From assembly GCA_951799425.1 (NCBI GenBank), contig OX637396.1, positions 41,531,901 to 41,595,900 on the forward strand: DNA of 64,000 nucleotides, read 5' to 3'. A program made the position numbers and the translations under genes. Positions 1,091-57,110 of the stretch are shown here, one piece after another (the stretch's first letter is position 1; each line of letters opens with the position of its first letter). The notes under the pieces are model-generated. The model had not been told where the DNA came from. It was given only the letters and a program-made list of their open reading frames with translations, and searched no databases. This stretch comes from Ilex aquifolium (taxonomy: Eukaryota > Streptophyta > Magnoliopsida > Aquifoliales > Aquifoliaceae).

Positions 1091-4000
1091 ATGGAGTTGG
1101 AGTGGTCACGGCCGGAGAATCCGGCGATGACGGTCGATGAGGTTTCGATGGAGGGAAGCAAGAATTTCGTCAAAGCATTGCAGGTTCGATTTATATTGTT
1201 TCTTTCACAAAGTTTGATATCAGATCTAGTTTTTTCCTCTATTTACATAGATAGCTATAACGTATATGACGCCGTTGACTTTTGGTTTACCTTCCATTTG
1301 ATTGCTCTGAAATGACTGAAAGAAAATTAAGTGGAAGTTCATAAATTTCCTCAAACTTATTATTATTGAATGTCTTCTTCCTACATTTTCTCCGTTTCCT
1401 AACTGAGCTCGAGACTTTTTGAGTATAATCATTAAGATTTCGATTGTTGCATGTTTGTACAACTGACTTCTGTGTTGTTTTTGAGTTAATTCTTCTTTCC
1501 TATGCGAGTCATTTATGATAATTAATTTCTAGTATTCTTTTCTTGTTAACGAGCAACCTCTTAGGCGTACCACTTTGGACCTAGTAAACCCCGGATATCT
1601 GCGGCAATTACGTCTCAGTTAAGCACACCAGCTAGGGTCAAACTCTGATGTCCAAATTTACTGTTCATCCAGGGTCAATCCTACACCGCTGGGCTACTTG
1701 CGGGTTATTTCTAGCAATTAATAGGTCTCGGTTAATGAATCTTGGTTGTTATATACATGTATTGTCAATTTAACGTTAAGGTGCTGCTATTCATGTCTCA
1801 TTGAAATTATGACTTGGATTTATTGAAGACGCCTGTTCTCTTCTGAGTGTTAGGTTGACGACCTTAACATTGGCGGGTTTATTATTGAATTTCATGTTCA
1901 CAATATAAATGCTACTCGACCTTAATCTCCTCATGTCTTAATGCAAATCACAAGGATACAAGGAAATTTGTTTTGTTTGTTTGACCACTAGCTATAATTG
2001 CTAGATTTGTTCTACATGTTGTGGGTGATGGTTTTCGAAATCTGTTTACCCTATTACAGAACTGTGATGGGGTGAGGCCTAGAAGGGACTTTGTGTGTGT
2101 TTGTGGATGGGGCTTGGACAAGAAACTGCCCAGTTTCTTGTCCAAGCCCCAATCTTTCTTTGCACAAAATACATTTCTGATATGGAAGCTGTCATTCAGA
2201 AAGACCGCTTGGTTTATCTTTGATGAGCCCATTAGAGACTTTGGGCGCAAGAGAGGGCACAAACTTAAATCCATCATCATCGGTGGATATTGTAAATTTT
2301 GAGTCGACTACATCACCTTTTTCATAGATGACTAAATCAGATGGGTTTTGTTAGTTTTTACTTCTTTTTTTAAAAGATATAAATTTCTATGACCACTGAT
2401 GCCATAATTTTGAAGTTTGTAAAGCCCACAACTTCGTCTTTATCTTTGTCTTCTTTCATTTTTTGGTGGGTGTTGCCAAGGTGTCGCCTACAATACAAAT
2501 GCAATCACCCACCTGCGTTTTGTCTGGAACAAGCCAGAGAGAGTTGAACTTGAGATATTTTTCAACGAAGCATCACCTCAGCCGACCCTTGTGGACTGGA
2601 ATTGGATACACAGCCTTATTGATCTCATCAGGCCTTTTTGTTGTAAACATATGCCATGATTTCCCTTGGTCTAATCTTTTTTGAAATTAATCATGCTCTA
2701 CCTATTACTTAAGTAAGTGCATGCCCATGGATTTTGTTTCATTCTATTCAATTTTAGTTTGTGAAATCATGTACTTTGGCGTAAGATGGCTGAAATCCTT
2801 GACTTATTATCATGTATTACAGAAAGTGTTGCAATCTGCTATTGCTGTAGAAATTGTTTTGGGTGTGCTTGCTCTATTTTGGTAGCACACATTTCCCAAT
2901 AGTTTCTGATCACGGTTTTGGCCATTTGTCAGAAAATTTGTTGCATTGTTTCCAATTTGATCATGGTGTCATGAACATTTCAGGAACTCAAAAACTTAAG
3001 GCCTCAACTCTATTCTGCTGCTGAATATTGTGAAAAGTCTTATCTTCACAGTGAACAGAAACAAATGTAAGACTGCTGCCACTAAATTTGAAATTGCTTG
3101 ATTCACTTTTTGCATAGTGAAGTTTTTGTGTACTTCATGAGATCTAAGGTTTTCCACAGGAGTTGTATGATAGGAGACTAGGAGAGCCATAGGTTACTTG
3201 TCATTCTTTCTAATTTTTATATGGTACACCCCCCAAAAAATCAATGGTGCAGCAATTAGAATTGTAATTTTTGAGCTCATTGTTCAATTGATACTGATTT
3301 TGAGCATTTATTTACTAGGAAAATTTTGTAATTTAGATGCCCTTAAAGTGTAACTGATGATGTGGCACATTTCCATCCTCTGTTTGCAAGACTTAAAATT
3401 ATTTGTTGCAAATTATGAGATCTCTTTCTCAAAGAGTTTTCCATCAAGTTTTGGAGCTTCATGTATCTGGAATATAGTTTCTTGTGAACAAGTAGATATT
3501 TTGATGCACGATGGCACAAGCCTTGGTTTTTTGTTATCCGTGGTCCACCCAGCATCGAAGCAGGTTTGTTGCCTGGCTATCCTAGAAATATGTATGGGTA
3601 AGCTTTTAATTCATTAATCCTCCTATTTAGTAGGGTGACAAAAATGGTAAGATACTTTCACTTGATTAGTCTCCACCATTTGTTTGTGTTGAACTGTGAG
3701 ATAAACTTAATTTTTTATGTCTGGAATTTATACTGTTTCTGGGTCTTGTGCACTCTTACTCTGCTTCTACGGGAAGCTATTTCAAAACATGTATTGGGTA
3801 TTGGACAACCTGAAAGATTATGCTGTACAAGCCCTTGTCAATGCTGTTGACCACCTTGGCACTTTTAAGCTTTCAATTCATTAATCCTCATATTTAGGGT
3901 GGTGAAAAAATGGTAAGACAATATTGCTTGATATATCTCCACCATTTGTATGTGTTGGAATATGACACAAACTTCAGTCTACTGCTTCGTTTTTTTTTAT

Positions 4001-5576
4001 ATGTACATTTTGTAACGCTTATGGGTCTTGTGCACTCTTACCATTCTTGTACTGTAATTTGATTTCAAAATATGTATAGGGTGCTAGACAACCTGAAAGA
4101 TTATGCTGTAAGGGCGCTTGTCAATGCTGTTGACCACATTGGCACCGTTGCCTACAAATTAACTGACCTTCTTGAGCAACAAACCACAGATGTTTCATCC
4201 GTGGAGCTGAGGGTTACATGTTTAAATCAGGTAAGGTTTCTGCAGTTGTCTAATTGAAGTTTTCTTCTTAGAAGAATAACTAGAGAAGCTGAATTTATTT
4301 TTGTCCTTTTGTCCTATTTTTAAGCAACTTCTAACATGCCAAACCTATACGAATAAAGAAGGTCTCAGGCAGCAACAGTCATTACCAATCATCCCAAAGC
4401 ATCACAAGCATTACATCTTGCCAAGTAAGACTAATTACTGCTATGTTCTTCTATATGTGGTGATAAGAATTCTTTTCTTATTTTCCATTTGCTTACCTGG
4501 TTTGACTTGCGAGCAGATTCAGTAAACAAGAAGGTGCATTTTAGCCCACAAAGACAGACAGATGCCAGACAAAGTCATATTCAAGCAATATCTCGTCTTT
4601 ATCCTTCAGGTAGTGGATTTGTCGCTGACAGATGCTTATGTCGTGTCATTACTCACATTTGTGTAAAAAAAAATTGTCTAGTGAGGAATCACTGCATATT
4701 GTATCACTTATGTCATGCATTGAATTTAGGTACCCCAGCATCAAACACTCTGTCTTGGCATTTAGCATCTGAAACCAAGTCTACCTTGAAAGGGACTCCA
4801 CGTGTGTTGATGAGGTTAGTCCGTGAAATTCAGCAAATGGAGATGACAATGCTAAGTCTACATTTCTATTTTTGATGAATGGAACTGCCACTGATATTCC
4901 ATTAGAGTTATGTTATTTATGTCTCCTTATTTGTGCAGCACTGAAGACTCGAAAACTTCTGGGGTGTTCAATTCGTTAGGTATGCATAGTTGTTAGTTAC
5001 TATCGTGCTGCTGCTGGATTATCTTCTCCATTGAGCAAAAATATTAGTGTTTCTGTTTCTAATTTGTATACTTGCATATGATGAAGACGGGACAAGGGCG
5101 AAATCCTCACCAGCTCACCGTCAGTTGCCCAATCTGGGGCCTGCTTCAAGTGCAGCTATGCAAACATTAGGTGCCATACAGGAGGTAATGTCAAAATCAA
5201 CAAGAACTCAAACATGCCTATTCCAGCTGGTGTACTTACCTCTAGTAATTTTCTACCAGTGAAAACACTAGGTAGCTTTTTGTCGCAGATTTTACTGCTC
5301 TCCTCTCCCATTAGTTCGGAAGTATATTTATATGTTTCTTGTTTTGTAAATTTAATTGTTCTCTTATACTTTGTCTTGTTGGATGAGAAAAAGATGTTAA
5401 AAGTGTTTCTTTTGTAGGATTCTCAGGAGGGCTCCAAGTCTTTGACAGCATTCCGATCGTTTGATAACCCACGCCGACGTGAGATTGTCCACGCCCCAGT
5501 TCGCAGCAAGAGTGTGCTTTCGGCTTTCTTTGTTAAACAGAAGACACCGAAATTGAAGGCCACATCTGTCTTGTGA
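1091..5576 (+). CDS. ABIL1: ABI-like protein ABIL1, SCAR/WAVE complex subunit
   Basis: Nine exons splice in frame: 1091-1183, 2984-3066, 4080-4230, 4325-4424, 4517-4609, 4730-4814, 4939-4979, 5087-5184, 5418-5576, giving 300 residues (about the size of Arabidopsis ABIL1). The product matches my memory of that protein almost throughout: N-terminal PENPAMT, the helical region around VLDNLKDYAVRALVNAVDH, the central HHKHYILP and KKVHFSP blocks, and the C-terminal VRSKSVLSAFFVKQKTPKLK tail. ABI-like proteins are subunits of the SCAR/WAVE complex, which activates ARP2/3 actin nucleation at the cell cortex. The start was chosen because exon 1 begins with the conserved MELE..RPENPAMT stretch. Exon 8 uses an acceptor in gatgaag; two acidic residues I expected there are absent, so this junction is the least certain. 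Intron 2 holds a decayed copy of exon 3. Confidence 0.93.
1556..1712 (-). mobile_element. tRNA-derived SINE-like fragment in ABIL1 intron 1
   Basis: On the minus strand this stretch shows a pol III A-box-like TAGCCCAGCGG (within + 1681-1700), then a B-box-like GAGTTTGACCC about 45 bases further along (within + 1633-1647). It is more GC-rich than the surrounding intron. Order and spacing suit a tRNA-derived SINE head. No tail or target-site duplication was identified, so the bounds are approximate. Confidence 0.4.
2108..2151. repeat. Perfect 21-bp palindrome in ABIL1 intron 1
   Basis: Positions 2108-2128 and 2131-2151 are exact reverse complements with only cc between them. Pairing stops just outside. 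In RNA it would be a 21-bp hairpin with a tiny loop. It does not resemble a plant miRNA precursor, which would have a longer arm and loop. Confidence 0.85.
3600..4145 (+). repeat. Tandem duplication carrying ABIL1 exon 3
   Basis: Unit 1 (about 3600-3866) and unit 2 (about 3867-4145) share the opening aagcttt.aattcattaat, the middle word tctccaccattt, and the 5' two fifths of exon 3. Unit 2 contains the working exon. Scattered substitutions and small indels show the duplication is not recent. Unit boundaries are good to a few bases. Confidence 0.8.
3797..3862 (+). pseudogene. Decayed partial copy of ABIL1 exon 3
   Basis: This intronic copy still translates as VLDNLKDYAVQALVNAVDHL, nearly identical to residues encoded by true exon 3 (4080-4230). 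Its acceptor has changed from tag to ttg (3794-3796). It stops at the equivalent of GGCAC, after which the sequence is unrelated, so it lacks the exon's 3' half and donor site. Normal splicing should not use it. Confidence 0.8.
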
Positions 5577-12303: not shown

Positions 12304-12375
12304 TGCGTCTGCCGGGAGTCGAACCCGGGTCTATTGCTTGGAAGGCAATTATCCTAACCGTTGGACTACAAACGC
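12304..12375 (-). tRNA. tRNA-Gly (anticodon UCC)
   Basis: The 72-nt minus-strand sequence folds as a full cloverleaf. Acceptor GCGTTTG pairs with CAGACGC (one U-G wobble), anticodon stem ATTGC with GCAAT, and the loop CTTCCAA gives anticodon TCC, reading GGA/GGG glycine codons. The T-loop is TTCGACT and the discriminator base is A. Internal promoters are intact: A box TAGTCCAACGG and B box GGTTCGACTCC. There is no intron and CCA is not encoded, as usual for nuclear tRNA genes. A CAA motif lies about 5-7 bases upstream, a plant tRNA initiation signal. It is predicted functional. Confidence 0.97.
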
Positions 12376-31723: not shown

Positions 31724-31758
<35 letters not shown>

Positions 31759-32895: not shown

Positions 32896-35800
32896 ATGTA
32901 TCCTGTCGACAGGTGCATGGACTCGTATCCCTATCAGACGAATAAAATGCATTACGCCCCACATTATCGTCCAAGCTTGGACGCTGTCTCACAACACGTG
33001 AATGTTCCAGCCAACTCTCCTGCAACATGTGAATCTTGGCCTTATGGTGGCTTTCCATATCCTGTGGAATGTCATGGCTGCTTTAACCATAACTACTTCC
33101 CCGGTTACTATGGTTTCAGACCTCCTTATCCTCATTTTCCACCACAATCATCGTTTCAATGTTATGGAAGTTACCCTGCATTCCCAGGAACCTATCCGAC
33201 CCACTATTTTCCTCCTCAGTGTGCAAGGGAGCAGCCAAGGTATGAATACGCAAAGGATATGCCTAGAGACCATCATTGTTGTGGATGTCCTAATCATCAA
33301 TGCAATCAAAAAGGAGATAAAAATCTGAGGATTGAAGAACAAGAACCCGATGCTGAAAAGAAAAGCAATGATTCCTTGGTTCCTTTCGAGTTGAAAAACT
33401 ATCCGTATCCAGTTATGTGGTTTCCACCTGGTTACATAAAAAATAAGGAGTACAGAGATTGTATTGAATCTGAATCTACACAAGGGGATGACTATCCCTG
33501 TGATGTGAAATCCTCTGAACAGCACCCAAAAGTCTGCGATGGATTGGTTCCACTGGACATGAATAACATTGGATCTTTGAAGCAAGGGGGGGATAAGAGG
33601 AGAAGCAAATGTCAGCTGAATGAGGAAAATAGTCCCTTCCCTTTTCCAATATATTGGATGCCTTACAAGCCTGAGGAAGTGAAAAGAAAAGACCTTAAGG
33701 AAACAAAGGGTGGTCAACAATCTGTCGAGGAATTACCATCCAATGTCAAGATTACTCCAGTGAGATTTCCTGACGCTGATGACAGGACAACAAGCGAAGA
33801 AAATTCTAGCAGTGAGGTTGGCTCTAAGCTGATTGATAAAAATGCTGTTAAAAAAATAATTCCCGTGAAACAAGTGCAACAACATGAGGAAAAGAAGGCT
33901 TCTGAAGAAGGTGACAGAGAAGCCAGAGGTGTTCCTGTTATGCCCTCATGTGATGAAGAGAAAATATCTTCTGAAGATAGTGCCAAAAGACTGTCTTCTT
34001 CCCCGCCAAAGACAGCCAAGTTACCTCCGGTCTGTTTGAGGGTTGATCCCTTGCCAAGGAGAAAAAGCAATAAAGGCAGTTCAAGGTCTCCAAGTCCTCC
34101 TGGTGACAAGGGTAAGCAAGCGGAGTTGTCATTAGACGGTTCCAAGTCTCCTACCTCATCTGTAATAAAAGAAAGCTCTGAACGAAATATGCAATCACCG
34201 GATTGTACACTAGACAACAGCAAGGAGGTAGAGCCCTGCAAAACCAAGACCAAAACTATTAAAGTTGTTGAAGGGGCAGCCAGGCAAGAGAGAAATGATT
34301 TGAATGTGGCTCGAACTGAGGGACCTTTTATCCTGCCCCTTAAATCTCAGGAAACCAGACTGGGAGACAATGTTATGGAGGGGAAGAATTCTGGTCAAGC
34401 AATTGAGCCGGAAAAGGCAACATTAGATGGGCAAATTTGTGATGATGCATGGCAGAGTGGAGAGGATAAAGAAGCTACAAAGTCAAAAGAGGATAACACT
34501 GACGAAGCACATAAAGGAAAGAGGAAGAAATTATCAGATGCTGAAGCCGCTACCATTATCCAGTCGGCATACCGTGGCTTTGAACTGAGGAAAGGGGAAC
34601 CATTGAAGAAACTGAAGCAGATAGCTGAAGTCAGTGAACAAGTGGCCGAGGTTAAGAGATGTATTCATGCTCTTGAATCTTCATACGACCTGGAGGTTGA
34701 TGAAAAACAAAAAGTAGCAATTGGAGAAACTATAATGGGCGTTTTACTGAAGCTCGACACCATTCAGGTATGTGTACAAGCAATATTAGGGCAAAACTAG
34801 ACTTTGGCAACCCAATGGTGTCCAGGTTGGGTCTGTCATTATTAATACTCTTGTATTTGCATATCTTTAGTCAGTGTACATCACTATTCCTCTTTGACAC
34901 ACGCATGGCATTTATTATCTCCATCACACATGATCTTTGAGCTTTTCGCAATTAAAATTGGTTGAGACTGATTTGCAAAGCATTTTGATGGCTCTCTTGG
35001 AGTTGAATTTTTCTTTTTGGCTTCTTTGTTTCTTGAATTATCAGAAATTGATATTCGAACCTTACTTTATATCTCTTCAATTTGTCAGGGATTGCACCCG
35101 AGCATTAGGGAAGTTAGGAAATCTGTGGCAAGGGAGCTTGTGAGCCTGCAGGAGAAGCTTGATTCTCTAACTATGAAGAAAATTCAACAACCCATTGAGC
35201 AGGCGGCCAAACCTGTGGAAGATTTTCCCAGTGAACCCTTGAATGAAGCTTGCATTCAAGGAGGACAAGGGCCAAAAGTAGAACCTGAATTTTCTGAGAG
35301 TGGAATCAGTAACAAGACTGAATATGTAGAGCAATGTCAAGGTGAGCCTCTCCTCATAGCAGATGTTGTGTCTGGCTCCAAAGCTGCGGAAACTTCAGGG
35401 GCAACCTTTGTTGATAAAGAAGTGTGTGGGGATCTGAAGGATAAGGCCATGGAGTTACAAGTGACGAGGTGTGTAGACTCCAACGAGGAAGCATCAGAGA
35501 CATTGACGGAACCAAAAGATGAGCAGAGAAATGAAGTGCTTGATGTTTGTCAAGTTCCATTCACAGAGAATCATGAATATTTGGAGCTTGAGCCATCTGT
35601 TGACCAGCCACTTCCGTCAGCTCTGGAAAAGAAGATCAATTGTCCAGTGGAGGTGGCACTATCCTCTTACCTGGTTGATGACTCAATTCATATGGACAAA
35701 GGTATACAAAATGTAATAGGTCAAGATTCTGAGGTTCGGGAGTCTCACAAGTATGAGTTGGATGTGAACGAGTTGGCAAAATTGCCCCCAGAAGTATTTG

Positions 35801-36459
35801 ATGAAAATCCTGAAGTTCAAGAGTTGGAGAATTACAGGCCGATTGAGACGGGGAAAGATGCAGCCCTCCAATGTGGATTAGTTTATTCACAAACGGCAGT
35901 TGACACAAGTTTGCCCGATATAACTCAAGTAAAACAGCAGCCACAGGAAGCACTGGAGGAAGGGCTAGTCCCTGCAGCAATCGTGGATAAGTTTGAATCA
36001 GAGAAATGTGATGAAAAAGATGAGAAAGTCCTCGTGGAATCTGGGGTTGAATCACTGCAACACTCACAAGAAGACCAAGGGAAAGCAGCTTATGTAGAGG
36101 AGCTTGTGAAAGTTTGTGAAGCGGAGGAGGAAAAGCTTAGATTAGACAAGGAAGAGAATTTCACTGGGGATGCCAGCCTTTTAGCTCAGGAAGTTGAACT
36201 ACGAGGAGAGGTCATTCACGATAATGAATTTGCAGAAGCTCAACGAGAGATCTCATTCAAGCAAAATGAAAATTATGATGTAACACACAAAGACGATCGT
36301 GGAATGACGGGTGTTGACAGCACTGATTCGGGTTTGCAATGTACTGCTTCTCTCTCTCAAGAGTTGGAAGTGCTTGTTGGAACCAAGGAATGTATAATGG
36401 AGAAAAAGACAGCAGTTGAAGAGGAGCAAGAGCTGCAGGATGGCAAGCTTGAATCTTGA
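32896..36459 (+). CDS. BAG6: BAG6 co-chaperone, C-terminally truncated by a solo LTR
   Basis: Two coding exons, 32896-34767 and 35089-36459, give 1080 residues. The N-terminus is Pro/Tyr/His-rich (residues 1-110), followed by two aromatic blocks (YPYPVMWFPPGY and FPFPIYWMPY) and a charged, low-complexity middle. A calmodulin-binding IQ motif lies at about 551-570 (AATIIQSAYRGFELRK). A BAG domain follows at about 571-650 across the intron, with the LHPSIREVRKSVARELVSLQ helix at the start of exon 2. BAG domains bind the Hsp70 nucleotide-binding domain and promote nucleotide exchange. Plant BAG6 acts in heat, basal-defence and cell-death responses. The last 430 residues are acidic. The TGA stop at 36457-36459 is the first three bases of an inserted LTR, so the family's C-terminal coiled-coil/basic tail is cut off. 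If the intron is kept, translation ends at 34800. Confidence 0.93.
36452..36456. repeat. Target-site duplication AATCT, left copy
   Basis: Identical to 37618-37622 and flanks the solo LTR. It is also the last coding sequence of truncated BAG6. Confidence 0.9.
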
Positions 36460-37617
36460 TGGGACATTTCTGAGATCAAAGCAGATCAGGACACGTGTTC
36501 TCGACCCCTATGACGGTGTGACGTACCTCGGCGAATAAGGGTTATCCAGCTTCTCCGACTGCATACCCTCGGCATCGAGGGTACCTTTAGGATGAGGACA
36601 TCATTCTCCATCGGCGCCGAGGGATGCTGACTACGATTATGACCTTGACGCGGCTCCTACTCCTGAAAAAGTCACTGACAACTGTCCTACCTCGACTAGA
36701 CTAGGGATCATGAGGGCACTCTGCACAAGGGAGTTGGTATATCAGGATCGACAGGACGCCCCTCCAAGGAAAGTGAGACACGTGGCAAAAAGCGCATGAT
36801 TAATTACAGGCGGACGAGACCGCCCCTGTTAACGTGCGACAGTAACGAGCGAGTATTTAATGAACCCCCACCTGATGGGATGTCTACAAAGACACAGGAA
36901 GCCGAGAAGTGATGGGCATTAAGTGCCCCAGCGCCGAGGCAATCAATGGCTTGTCCTCAAAAGAAGAACATTAAATACTCCGGGAACCGAACATTCAATG
37001 TCCTTCCATGAAAAGACGAGCTTTGATTGCTCGGGGATCCGAGCAGTCAATGATGAGGTCTTCCCCATGCGCAATAGGGGGCACACTGCCCACCCTCTGA
37101 ACACTACCTACTTTCTAGACTATCAACAATGATGAGTCCGAGTGGGTATAAATAGCTCCCAAAAATACATTGCAAAGGTACGCAAGAACAACTCTCAAGA
37201 GCAACCAGTGTTTTCTTCTTCCCCATTCTCACAAAACTGACTTGATCGTTGGAGGGGATACGCCGGAAAACACTCCGACGCCCTTTCTGACCCTTTTTCT
37301 GTGTACCAGGAAGCCCCGTAGAACCGCCTGAAGGCATCGATCGACCATAACTACAATTCATCACCACTTCTTAGTCCCCCTTTGGCCCTCTCAACCTATT
37401 CCTTGTTGCGGAAGATACCACCTCCCAGGCCGGAATCTTGGTTAAACGGCCCGAAGGATCGAGGAACCTAAAGAAACAATTCATCATCACTCCATCAGGC
37501 CCTTTGGCCCTCTCAGCCCTTGCTTCGCTGGGGGATCGTCGACATTCGACGCCGGCACGAGTTCACCTGGGGAGAGACCTGCCTTCCATAACCATTGTGC
37601 GAAATTCTGTGCGCACA
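36457..37617 (+). mobile_element. Solo LTR (Ty3/gypsy-like) inside BAG6
   Basis: The element starts TGATGGGACA and ends TGCGCACA (TG...CA). It is flanked by exact 5-bp duplications and is 1161 bp. It is far richer in GC and CpG than the surrounding gene. A TATA box (TATAAATA, 37147-37154) lies about two thirds in, as in the U3/R boundary of an LTR. The following segment, with ctgacttgatcg and ccggaaaacactccgacg words, resembles Ty3/gypsy R-U5 regions, but that family call is from memory. No internal domain, primer-binding site or second LTR is present. It is in the same orientation as BAG6, so its promoter could drive the severed 3' end. Confidence 0.9.
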
Positions 37618-37622
37618 AATCT
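37618..37622. repeat. Target-site duplication AATCT, right copy
   Basis: Exact match to 36452-36456, directly after the terminal CA of the LTR. Confidence 0.9.
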
Positions 37623-38048
37623 CACGAGTTAGAATTACCGATTGGAAAAAATGAGAAGATTAACCAGTCTTTTGACTCGGGCCAGGGCGAAGAGGACTTG
37701 TTTGCTCCTCCAGCTAGTGCTAAGCAAGCTAAAGAGGCAGAGGTTTCCCTTATGTCTCCAACTGCTAGCCAGGTTTCTCTTGGAAGTGAATTAATGGTGG
37801 AAAATGATAGAAAGCTAATTGAAGAGAACGACAAGTTGAGGGAGATGGTGGAGAAGCAGATTGAAGCTGGGAAACAACAGCTAACTGCCATTTCCAAACT
37901 CTCAGGAAGAGTCGAAAACTTGGAGAAGAGATTGTCTAAGCAAAAGAAATTGAAGATGAGACGACACAAAGTTCCTTTATCTGGGTCTTCATGTGTTAAA
38001 CCGTCCAATGATCCGCTGAAAGAGGCAGCTGTGGGATTGGCATCGTGA
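37623..38048 (+). pseudogene. BAG6: Severed 3' coding end of BAG6
   Basis: The frame is open for 141 codons plus TGA (38046-38048), in phase with the truncated exon 2 if LTR and one duplication copy are ignored. It encodes an acidic/Ser-rich stretch, then a coiled coil (ENDKLREMVEKQIEAGKQQL, SGRVENLEKRLSKQ) and a basic cluster KKLKMRRHK, resembling the C-terminus I recall for Arabidopsis BAG6. It has no stop or frameshift and no start of its own near the junction. Whether it is still expressed, by splicing around or transcription from the LTR, cannot be told from sequence. Confidence 0.85.
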
Positions 38049-39118
38049 TAAATATCATCCAATTTTTTTTTTTTCTTTTTCTTGGATGTAAACAAGTGGG
38101 TGTAATGTTGGGGTTGGATTTCATTGTCTGTTTAAGTCGTGTGTAATATTTGTCTATTCTGTAATATATAATAAATCATGGGTCTTGGTGCATTAGTAAG
38201 ATAGTTTTATTATTTTGATTTTCCGAGGACGATGCTTGCAAATCTTAAGACTAATAGAAAATAAAAAAGATCATAACACTTTGTTTGCCTAGCAATGGTT
38301 CAAAGAATTATACTAGGTACAATTAAAGCCAATGTCTTGGTCCGTCACAATTAGTTAAGCCCCACTAATTATCAAGAAGTTTAGATGAACATAAAAAAAT
38401 GATGTATTGTAATTTAGTGTACGAGACTTCTAATATTGTAAGTAAGGTTGGTAATTAAGTCTAGCTATTTAAATTTGGCTCTAATTCGACTTGTATATAT
38501 AAAATAATCGAGTTATTCAGATTCAACTTATTTTTTAAGCGAATTTGAAATTTTTTTTAGACTCGTTTGATAAACTAGGTTCAAATTAACAAAATTTAAC
38601 TTGATTATTAACTTTTTAGTATTATGTGACCTTAGTTTCCAAGTTACCAAAAAATATAAACAAAGAATGGAAGTATTGAGAAATTTTAAAAAGTTAAAAA
38701 AAGAAAAAGAAAAAAGAAAATAAGTGAAGGAAACCACTTTGGGCTTTTGGATGCAGGGCCAGGATCGGCAAACATGCGAGGAGTCCAGCCTATTTACTGC
38801 TGGCCAAGGGAGCCCAAAGACCACACCCATAATTGTCCCCTAAAACCCTAGGGCCTAGGCCGGTACTGCCTACTGGCAACACAGACGGGGAGAGAACTCA
38901 CTTCAAATCTCTCTCTCTCTCTCTTCAGTGCTTAGTGTCCTTCGTTGGTTTTTGAATTCATCCATTCTTGAATTAAATCGGAGTCGCTTATTCCAATCAC
39001 CGGAAAACAAAGAATTCAAGAAGGTTTGGTGATAAATGTATCGCAGTATGCAAATATGTATTTAGAGAGAGAAAATAAGCTTTAAAGGAAAGAGGGCAAG
39101 AGAGAGAGGGAGACGCAC
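38049..39118. other. BAG6 3' flank, dispersed repeat and C2-gene promoter
   Basis: Former BAG6 3' UTR lies near 38050-38200. The segment 38450-38600 contains gactcg/cgagtt words like those at 1-75 and 49500-49650, so it is probably a repeat copy. From about 38840 the sequence is promoter-like, with aaaccctag, tagggcctagg and a (CT)n tract at 38909-38924. Confidence 0.4.
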
Positions 39119-39937
39119 ATGGAAGGCGAGACTCAGATTCTAGAGATTAGCTTGATGTCCGCTCAAGATCTAAAGACCCCCTCCGCTAACTTGCGCAGTA
39201 TGCAAACCTACGCACTCATCTGGGTCGAACCCTCCGTAAAGCTCCGTACCCAAATTGATCGACTTGGAGGCGAAAACCCTACTTGGAATGACAAATTCCT
39301 CTTTCGAGTCGACAAAGACTTCGTCACCGGCGAGACCTCCGCCGTGTCTGTCGAGATCTACGCCGTCGGTTACATCAAAGATAAACTCATCGGCACCGTC
39401 CGTTTCCTTCTCAGCAGCTGTCTCCAAGGCGGTGATTCTGTCACCGGAATCGGAATTCCAGCGTTTACTGCCGTTCAAATCCGCCGTCCCTCTGGCCGAT
39501 TTCACGGCGTTCTCAATATCGCTGTTACAGTGTATAAAAGCTCCGATTTTACAATCTTGGACGGTTTATCGGCGATATGTTTCCGTGATTTGATGAAGGG
39601 AGAGAATGATCGCCGCTGGCGAAGGCTGAGTCGTATTGGATCGAAGAAGAGTGAGAAATCCTCTGGTGGCGAGTCTTGTGACTTTTCTTGTGGAGACTCG
39701 ATTGATTTGGATTTCTCAGACGGTGGTGATTCGACGTCGTCGTCGTCGTCGACCACATCAACGGTGTTGAAGGAGTGGAACGGCGGTGCTGGGAGGGCAG
39801 AAATGGCGGGAAAGAAGGACTTGAAATCGGACGGCGGAGGATCGCTGTGCGGGTTAATATTACAGAGGAAGATCCATTTGAGTCCGTCGGATCAGAATTT
39901 TCAGTTTTGTGCAGAATCGCTGGAAAAGAAGCATTGA
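39119..39937 (+). CDS. C2-domain (CaLB/SRC2-like) protein
   Basis: A single uninterrupted frame of 272 residues. Residues 5-130 form a plant SRC2/BAP-type C2 domain: LEISLMSAQDLK first strand, then YALIWVEP, NPTWNDKFLF and VSVEIYAVGYIKDKLIGTVRF. Such domains bind membranes, often with calcium, but several acidic calcium-loop positions appear absent, so calcium dependence is doubtful. Residues 145-170 contain a conserved SAICFRDLM segment. A Ser/Asp-rich linker follows (poly-Ser around 214-222), then a short Gly-rich block GGGSLCGLILQRK. Codon use is GC-richer than its neighbours, typical of intronless plant genes. The ATG at 39119 starts directly before the C2 fold. It resembles At4g01200, which neighbours At4g01210/01220 in Arabidopsis as I recall. 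Confidence 0.88.
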   Translation: MEGETQILEISLMSAQDLKTPSANLRSMQTYALIWVEPSVKLRTQIDRLGGENPTWNDKFLFRVDKDFVTGETSAVSVEIYAVGYIKDKLIGTVRFLLSSCLQGGDSVTGIGIPAFTAVQIRRPSGRFHGVLNIAVTVYKSSDFTILDGLSAICFRDLMKGENDRRWRRLSRIGSKKSEKSSGGESCDFSCGDSIDLDFSDGGDSTSSSSSTTSTVLKEWNGGAGRAEMAGKKDLKSDGGGSLCGLILQRKIHLSPSDQNFQFCAESLEKKH

Positions 39938-56992: not shown

Positions 56993-57110
56993 AGCCCATG
57001 GCCTTTCCACTAGTTGGTCCAGGCTATGGAGCCAAGTGTCGATCCTTAGCCCATGGCCTTTCCACTAGTTGGTCCAGGCTATGGAGCCAAGTGTCGATCC
57101 TTAGCCCATG
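56993..57110. repeat. Perfect 55-bp tandem duplication
   Basis: Two identical copies with period 55 (agcccatggcctttccacta onwards) plus the first bases of a third. Lack of divergence implies a recent duplication. Confidence 0.9.

Follow-up and report, generated by a model that had tools for sequence, protein, structure and literature searches.

The BAG6-like gene and the element within it

The window, meaning the whole stretch of 64,000 nucleotides analyzed here, belongs to contig OX637396.1 of Ilex aquifolium (contig C6 in the genome searches below). On its forward strand it carries a gene that we take to be the stress co-chaperone BAG6 rather than BAG5 or BAG7, a name given from domain order and length, and a solo long terminal repeat (LTR) adjoined on both sides by the coding sequence of this gene. 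The features of the locus are the following:

32896..34767, + strand: coding exon 1 of the BAG6-like gene, 624 codons (open frame; partial BAG and IQ matches in Pfam; its own sole strong match in the genome)
34768..35088, + strand: phase-0 intron splitting the BAG domain, with GT...AG borders
35089..36456, + strand: coding exon 2 before the insertion, 456 codons (open frame, codon usage)
36443..36444, + strand: predicted cryptic GC splice donor, G/GCAAG, 14 bp upstream of the LTR (approximate weights)
36452..36456, + strand: target-site duplication AATCT, 5' copy
36457..37617, + strand: solo LTR of 1161 bp with TG...CA ends, in sense orientation, Ty3/gypsy, possibly of the Tat clade
36457..36459, + strand: in-frame TGA with which the LTR begins
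37147..37152, + strand: TATAAA, candidate promoter box of the LTR (the only TATAAA of the LTR on this strand; putative role)
37618..37622, + strand: target-site duplication AATCT, 3' copy
37623..38048, + strand: orphaned 3' part of BAG6, 141 codons plus a stop (same frame, codon usage, single copy)
38170..38175, + strand: AATAAA, candidate native polyadenylation signal (putative role)

An IQ motif lies in exon 1 at about residues 550-562, followed by the beginning of the BAG domain (residues 576-624), while the part of exon 2 before the LTR holds the end of this domain and an acidic region. The intron between them scored 7.2 at its donor and 5.6 at its acceptor with approximate weights. The initial annotation had proposed that both the BAG domain and the IQ motif are retained upstream of the LTR. 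For the BAG domain (PF02179) this was borne out, the spliced segment reaching 50.9 bits against a Pfam cut-off of 23.4, compared with 20 and 14.7 for the two halves. The IQ motif was located directly before the BAG domain, where plant BAG6, a group II BAG protein, would have it, but at 17.5 bits it stayed under its cut-off of 20.3. In the PDB, the BAG domain matched only Arabidopsis BAG3 and BAG1, with E values no better than 0.69.

The LTR is of full length, without an internal region, and its duplication is an exact 5-bp match at both borders, within the 4-6 bp used to define a solo LTR; the coordinates given in the initial annotation were correct to the base. The placement of the insertion in the second coding exon was also correct, since the open frame of exon 2 continues beyond the LTR. 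When the flanks were joined without the LTR and one copy of the duplication, a single open frame of 456 + 141 codons followed by a stop was obtained, and the joined frame including exon 1 amounted to 1221 codons. Since the element went in between two codons, the TGA at the start of the LTR is read directly as a stop, with a predicted product of 1080 residues; the first stops in the other two frames are at 36471 and 36536. The evidence for an LTR insertion in an exon of the BAG6-like gene is far beyond chance.

To all appearance this is the only BAG6 in the assembly, in which a second haplotype may go unrepresented. In the genome search exon 1 matched itself and, at 30%, a region on C18 over its IQ-BAG part, and the tail matched itself and two places at E 7.95 and 8.35. 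A second intact BAG6 was rejected on these searches, in which exon 1 and the tail each gave only themselves as strong matches. The Pfam BAG search pointed to nine other places in the genome, indicating that the plant has other BAG proteins.

Other features were observed in the window. A run of 34 G (31724-31757, + strand) is found some 1.1 kb before the BAG6 start codon, where it may belong to a 5' intron or to the promoter; it is unusual and possibly reflects a sequencing or assembly problem. Just downstream of the gene, an open frame of 272 codons (39119-39937, + strand) presumably encodes a C2-domain protein, judging by eye. A 55-bp unit is repeated 2.1 times with 100% identity at 56993-57110. 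Two families of direct repeats at 3711-4145, of 84 nt (88%) and 65 nt (75%) with a spacing of 282-283, suggest tandem duplication on a local scale, which may have involved exons. A tRNA-Gly (TCC) was found on the - strand at 12304-12375 by both ARAGORN and Rfam.

The LTR family and the age of the insertion

The genome (800 Mb, 103 contigs) was searched with the LTR, giving 63 match rows from the 40 candidates scored out of 938 seen at first look. The closest copies among these 40 were on C2 (97%, K2P 0.030) and C8 (95%, K2P 0.046). The initial annotation had recommended such a search to find the full-length parent of the element; full-length relatives were recovered on C12 and C4, but the immediate parent did not turn up in the 40 scored candidates of the 938. 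In these two relatives the same LTR is present at both ends (K2P 0.031 for the C12 pair, 0.027 for the C4 pair); the 5' LTR is followed by a primer site, TGGCGCC, and the 3' LTR is preceded by a purine-rich tract.

Borders were read for ten LTRs besides the BAG6 copy, two of the loci overlapping the same copy, so that nine were distinct. Four of them are flanked on both sides by their own differing 5-bp duplications (GAAAC, CCTAA, CTTGC and ACGTC, the latter read by eye beside an altered 5' end in the C8 relative) and are therefore also solo. In three relatives (C4:46.99 Mb, C12 and C4:41.35 Mb) the 3' end of the LTR is followed by ATTTGGCGCCGTCTGTGGGAA, a start that resembles a primer-binding site, and in two relatives a purine-rich tract precedes the 3' LTR; it follows that the BAG6 LTR has the same (sense) orientation as the gene.

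The C18 relative has RVT_1 and RT_RNaseH ahead of Integrase_H2C2 and rve, which is the arrangement of pol that defines Ty3/gypsy, integrase coming after reverse transcriptase and RNase H. The scan of pol in the relatives covered 10 of the 35 frames of at least 110 codons. An RVT_3 domain, which we take to stand for the additional RNase H domain (aRH) of the Tat clade, was detected before the integrase in the C4 relative (8.3e-22); it was absent between RNase H and integrase in the C18 fragment and from the fragments of the other relatives scanned. One study describes the aRH of Tat elements in angiosperms as lying between RNase H and integrase (PMC6317226). The relatives resemble that description in having reverse transcriptase, RNase H, integrase and, in one case, the RNase H-like RVT_3, which possibly points to the Tat clade. 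They differ from it in that only one of the scanned relatives has RVT_3, and the window itself contains the LTR alone.

Compared with the copies on C2, C8 and C4:46.99, the BAG6 LTR has 12 private substitutions, 10 of which are C>T or G>A, whereas these changes account for four of the nine private substitutions of the C2 copy. With substitution rates of 1.3e-8 to 4e-9, the 12 substitutions over approximately 1150 sites put the age at no more than 0.8 to 2.6 million years; this is a ceiling, since some of the substitutions may be older than the insertion. So many cytosine transitions would fit a methylated BAG6 copy, the numbers of substitutions being small. Overall, the exonic solo LTR looks real and fairly recent.

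The severed tail and the fate of the product

The initial annotation had claimed that the insertion removes 141 C-terminal residues containing a coiled coil and a basic cluster. The extent of the loss agreed with the in-frame TGA at 36457 and with a tail that continues the frame of exon 2 with the codon usage of the gene. This usage was gene-like only in the BAG6 frame (+0.30 bits per codon), the other five frames of the tail ranging from -0.02 to -0.44 and the six frames of the LTR from -0.25 to -0.30; exon 2, which belonged to the training set, scored +0.40. The tail frame was open in none of 20,000 shuffles. The basic cluster KKLKMRRHK was found in the lost tail, starting at residue 1188 of the joined frame. 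The coiled coil is weakly supported, with 391 of 5000 shuffles of the tail matching its crude heptad score. The Pfam matches of the tail were all below threshold (e.g., Mis12, YabA and NEMO), and a PDB search with it found no match better than E 0.52. On the - strand opposite the tail there is an open frame of 157 codons (37622-38095), probably by chance, with codon usage that is not gene-like.

The history that explains these features best, to which we give a probability of about three in four, would have begun when a Ty3/gypsy LTR retrotransposon entered the last coding exon of BAG6 in the sense direction. Its two LTRs would then have recombined, with loss of one of them and of the internal part, so that a solo LTR stayed behind between the 5-bp duplications. 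The conserved TGA start of the LTR would act as the stop codon of BAG6, and at the sequence level the allele would make a protein of 1080 residues with the BAG domain and the IQ motif and without the last 141 residues, whose codons would be left orphaned downstream of the LTR. The amount of product would probably be lowered, either because the native polyadenylation signal lies about 1.7 kb further on or because the 3' end would derive from the LTR. The likeliest outcome would be the truncated protein or a reduced level of mRNA, the latter being possible because the 3' untranslated region (UTR) would be approximately 1.7 kb long.

A stronger loss is less probable, while still deserving serious thought: the allele may be effectively null, with most of the BAG6 mRNA removed by nonsense-mediated decay (NMD) or by silencing that spreads out of a methylated LTR. 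With use of the native signal the 3' UTR would measure about 1731 nt, counted from the stop to a point 20 bases beyond the first base of AATAAA, which exceeds the 1000 nt given as an NMD signature in a paper that cites a mammalian study for it (PMC9786829); the mammalian origin of this figure weakens its use here. Moreover, with the stop in the last coding exon, the coding part has no exon junction complex downstream of it, and BAG6 transcripts may end inside the LTR. The transitions in the BAG6 copy (10 of 12, against four of nine in the closest copy) are those expected from methylated cytosines and favor silencing, but counts of 12 and nine are few for such an argument. An assembly artefact, or an insertion on one haplotype whose normal allele was omitted from the assembly, seems improbable. 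Exon 1, the LTR junction and the tail are each present once in the assembly, in which a differing haplotype would be unrepresented; an artefact would not yield an exact duplication in frame, which still leaves room for a heterozygous state.

It is also rather unlikely that the LTR now lies within a new intron, running from the GC donor at 36443 to an AG acceptor in the tail, and that a near full-length BAG6 keeps its basic tail. In the splice survey, 109 in-frame, stop-free GT/GC-AG pairs were compared (donors in 36300-36520, acceptors in 37560-37759), with approximate weights that carry no penalty for GC donors. For the donor at 36443, in-frame acceptors would start the exon at 37714 (35 codons lost) or at 37633 (8 codons lost). 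The former pair was the best of the 109 (4.84 + 1.75), and the donor ranked 0.995 among the 2045 GC sites of the window; the scores of this pair remain lower than those of the intron of the gene (7.2 + 5.6), despite the unpenalized GC, and GC splice donors are rare. The pair ending at 37633 was the least lossy one with a fair score, the other pairs within 15 codons having -8 or less, but its acceptor was mediocre (-3.65, rank 0.523 among 3628 AG sites). With GT donors alone, the top in-frame pair scored 3.7 at a cost of 72 codons, and no strong GT donor was found beside the LTR (best 2.3, compared with 7.2 for the native donor). The exact splicing-out of the insertion was rejected, as none of the six registers that would restore the sequence combines a GT or GC donor with an AG acceptor. 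In the Arabidopsis gene CMT1, a splice variant with a GC donor restores the frame, but the CMT1 variants gave very little full-length mRNA (PMC6238269). Against the favored reading of a truncated product, part of the BAG6 mRNA may be spliced around the LTR through the fair donor at 36443.

The division of BAG6 into two working units, a co-chaperone free of its tail and a short tail protein expressed from the sense promoter of the LTR, is very improbable. Downstream of the TATAAA at 37147 the first ATG is at 37651, and the in-frame starts at 37752 and 37794 would give a coiled-coil/basic-tail protein of 98 or 84 residues; the start at 37794 overlaps the stop of an upstream frame of 47 codons. 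If true, the tail would have ceased to restrain or route the co-chaperone, and the locus would represent gene fission by a solo LTR.

Relation to known systems

Exonic insertions of retroelements are already known as a type of event, and the solo LTR in BAG6 is a fresh case. No report of a solo LTR in a plant BAG6 was found in the open-licence PubMed Central papers, and none by title of a truncated plant BAG6 with a retrotransposon; searches of this literature for a solo LTR in a coding exon gave unrelated matter only. If the allele with the TGA-truncated BAG6 is expressed, it would be a natural test of the C-terminal tail of plant BAG6 in the absence of another copy in the assembly. It would also be a case in which the conserved first bases of an LTR serve as a stop codon.

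The closest parallel is Evelknievel, an LTR element in exon 13 of Arabidopsis CMT1, which is spliced out as a whole element at a low level (PMC6238269). Both cases share an LTR element in a coding exon, a 5-bp duplication and, in the simplest reading, a truncated protein. By contrast, Evelknievel is a whole element and CMT1 has a further intron that is used for splicing, whereas the BAG6 copy is solo. One CMT1 variant takes its GC donor from the duplication and its acceptor AG from the last A of the LTR together with the G of the duplication (PMC6238269); such a junction AG cannot form at the BAG6 LTR, where the duplication is AATCT. The BAG6 LTR offers a second place for testing splicing around exonic retroelements.

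Arabidopsis BAG6, also a long protein with an IQ motif and a BAG domain, has been linked to autophagy, heat responses and resistance against fungi, and proteolytic shortening forms part of its activity (PMC5349150). According to that study, cleavage follows LATD (D760), beyond the BAG domain in the downstream direction, and a cleaved fragment induces autophagy. LATD is absent from the Ilex BAG6-like protein; LIAD at 713, one of 11 [LIVYWF]xxD tetrapeptides after residue 600, is only a lead as its counterpart. In Arabidopsis, a shortened form, with its C-terminal side kept or lost, is important for autophagy and for resistance to fungi. The cut is proteolytic and at D760 in Arabidopsis (PMC5349150), whereas in Ilex it is genetic and lies far downstream, at residue 1080.
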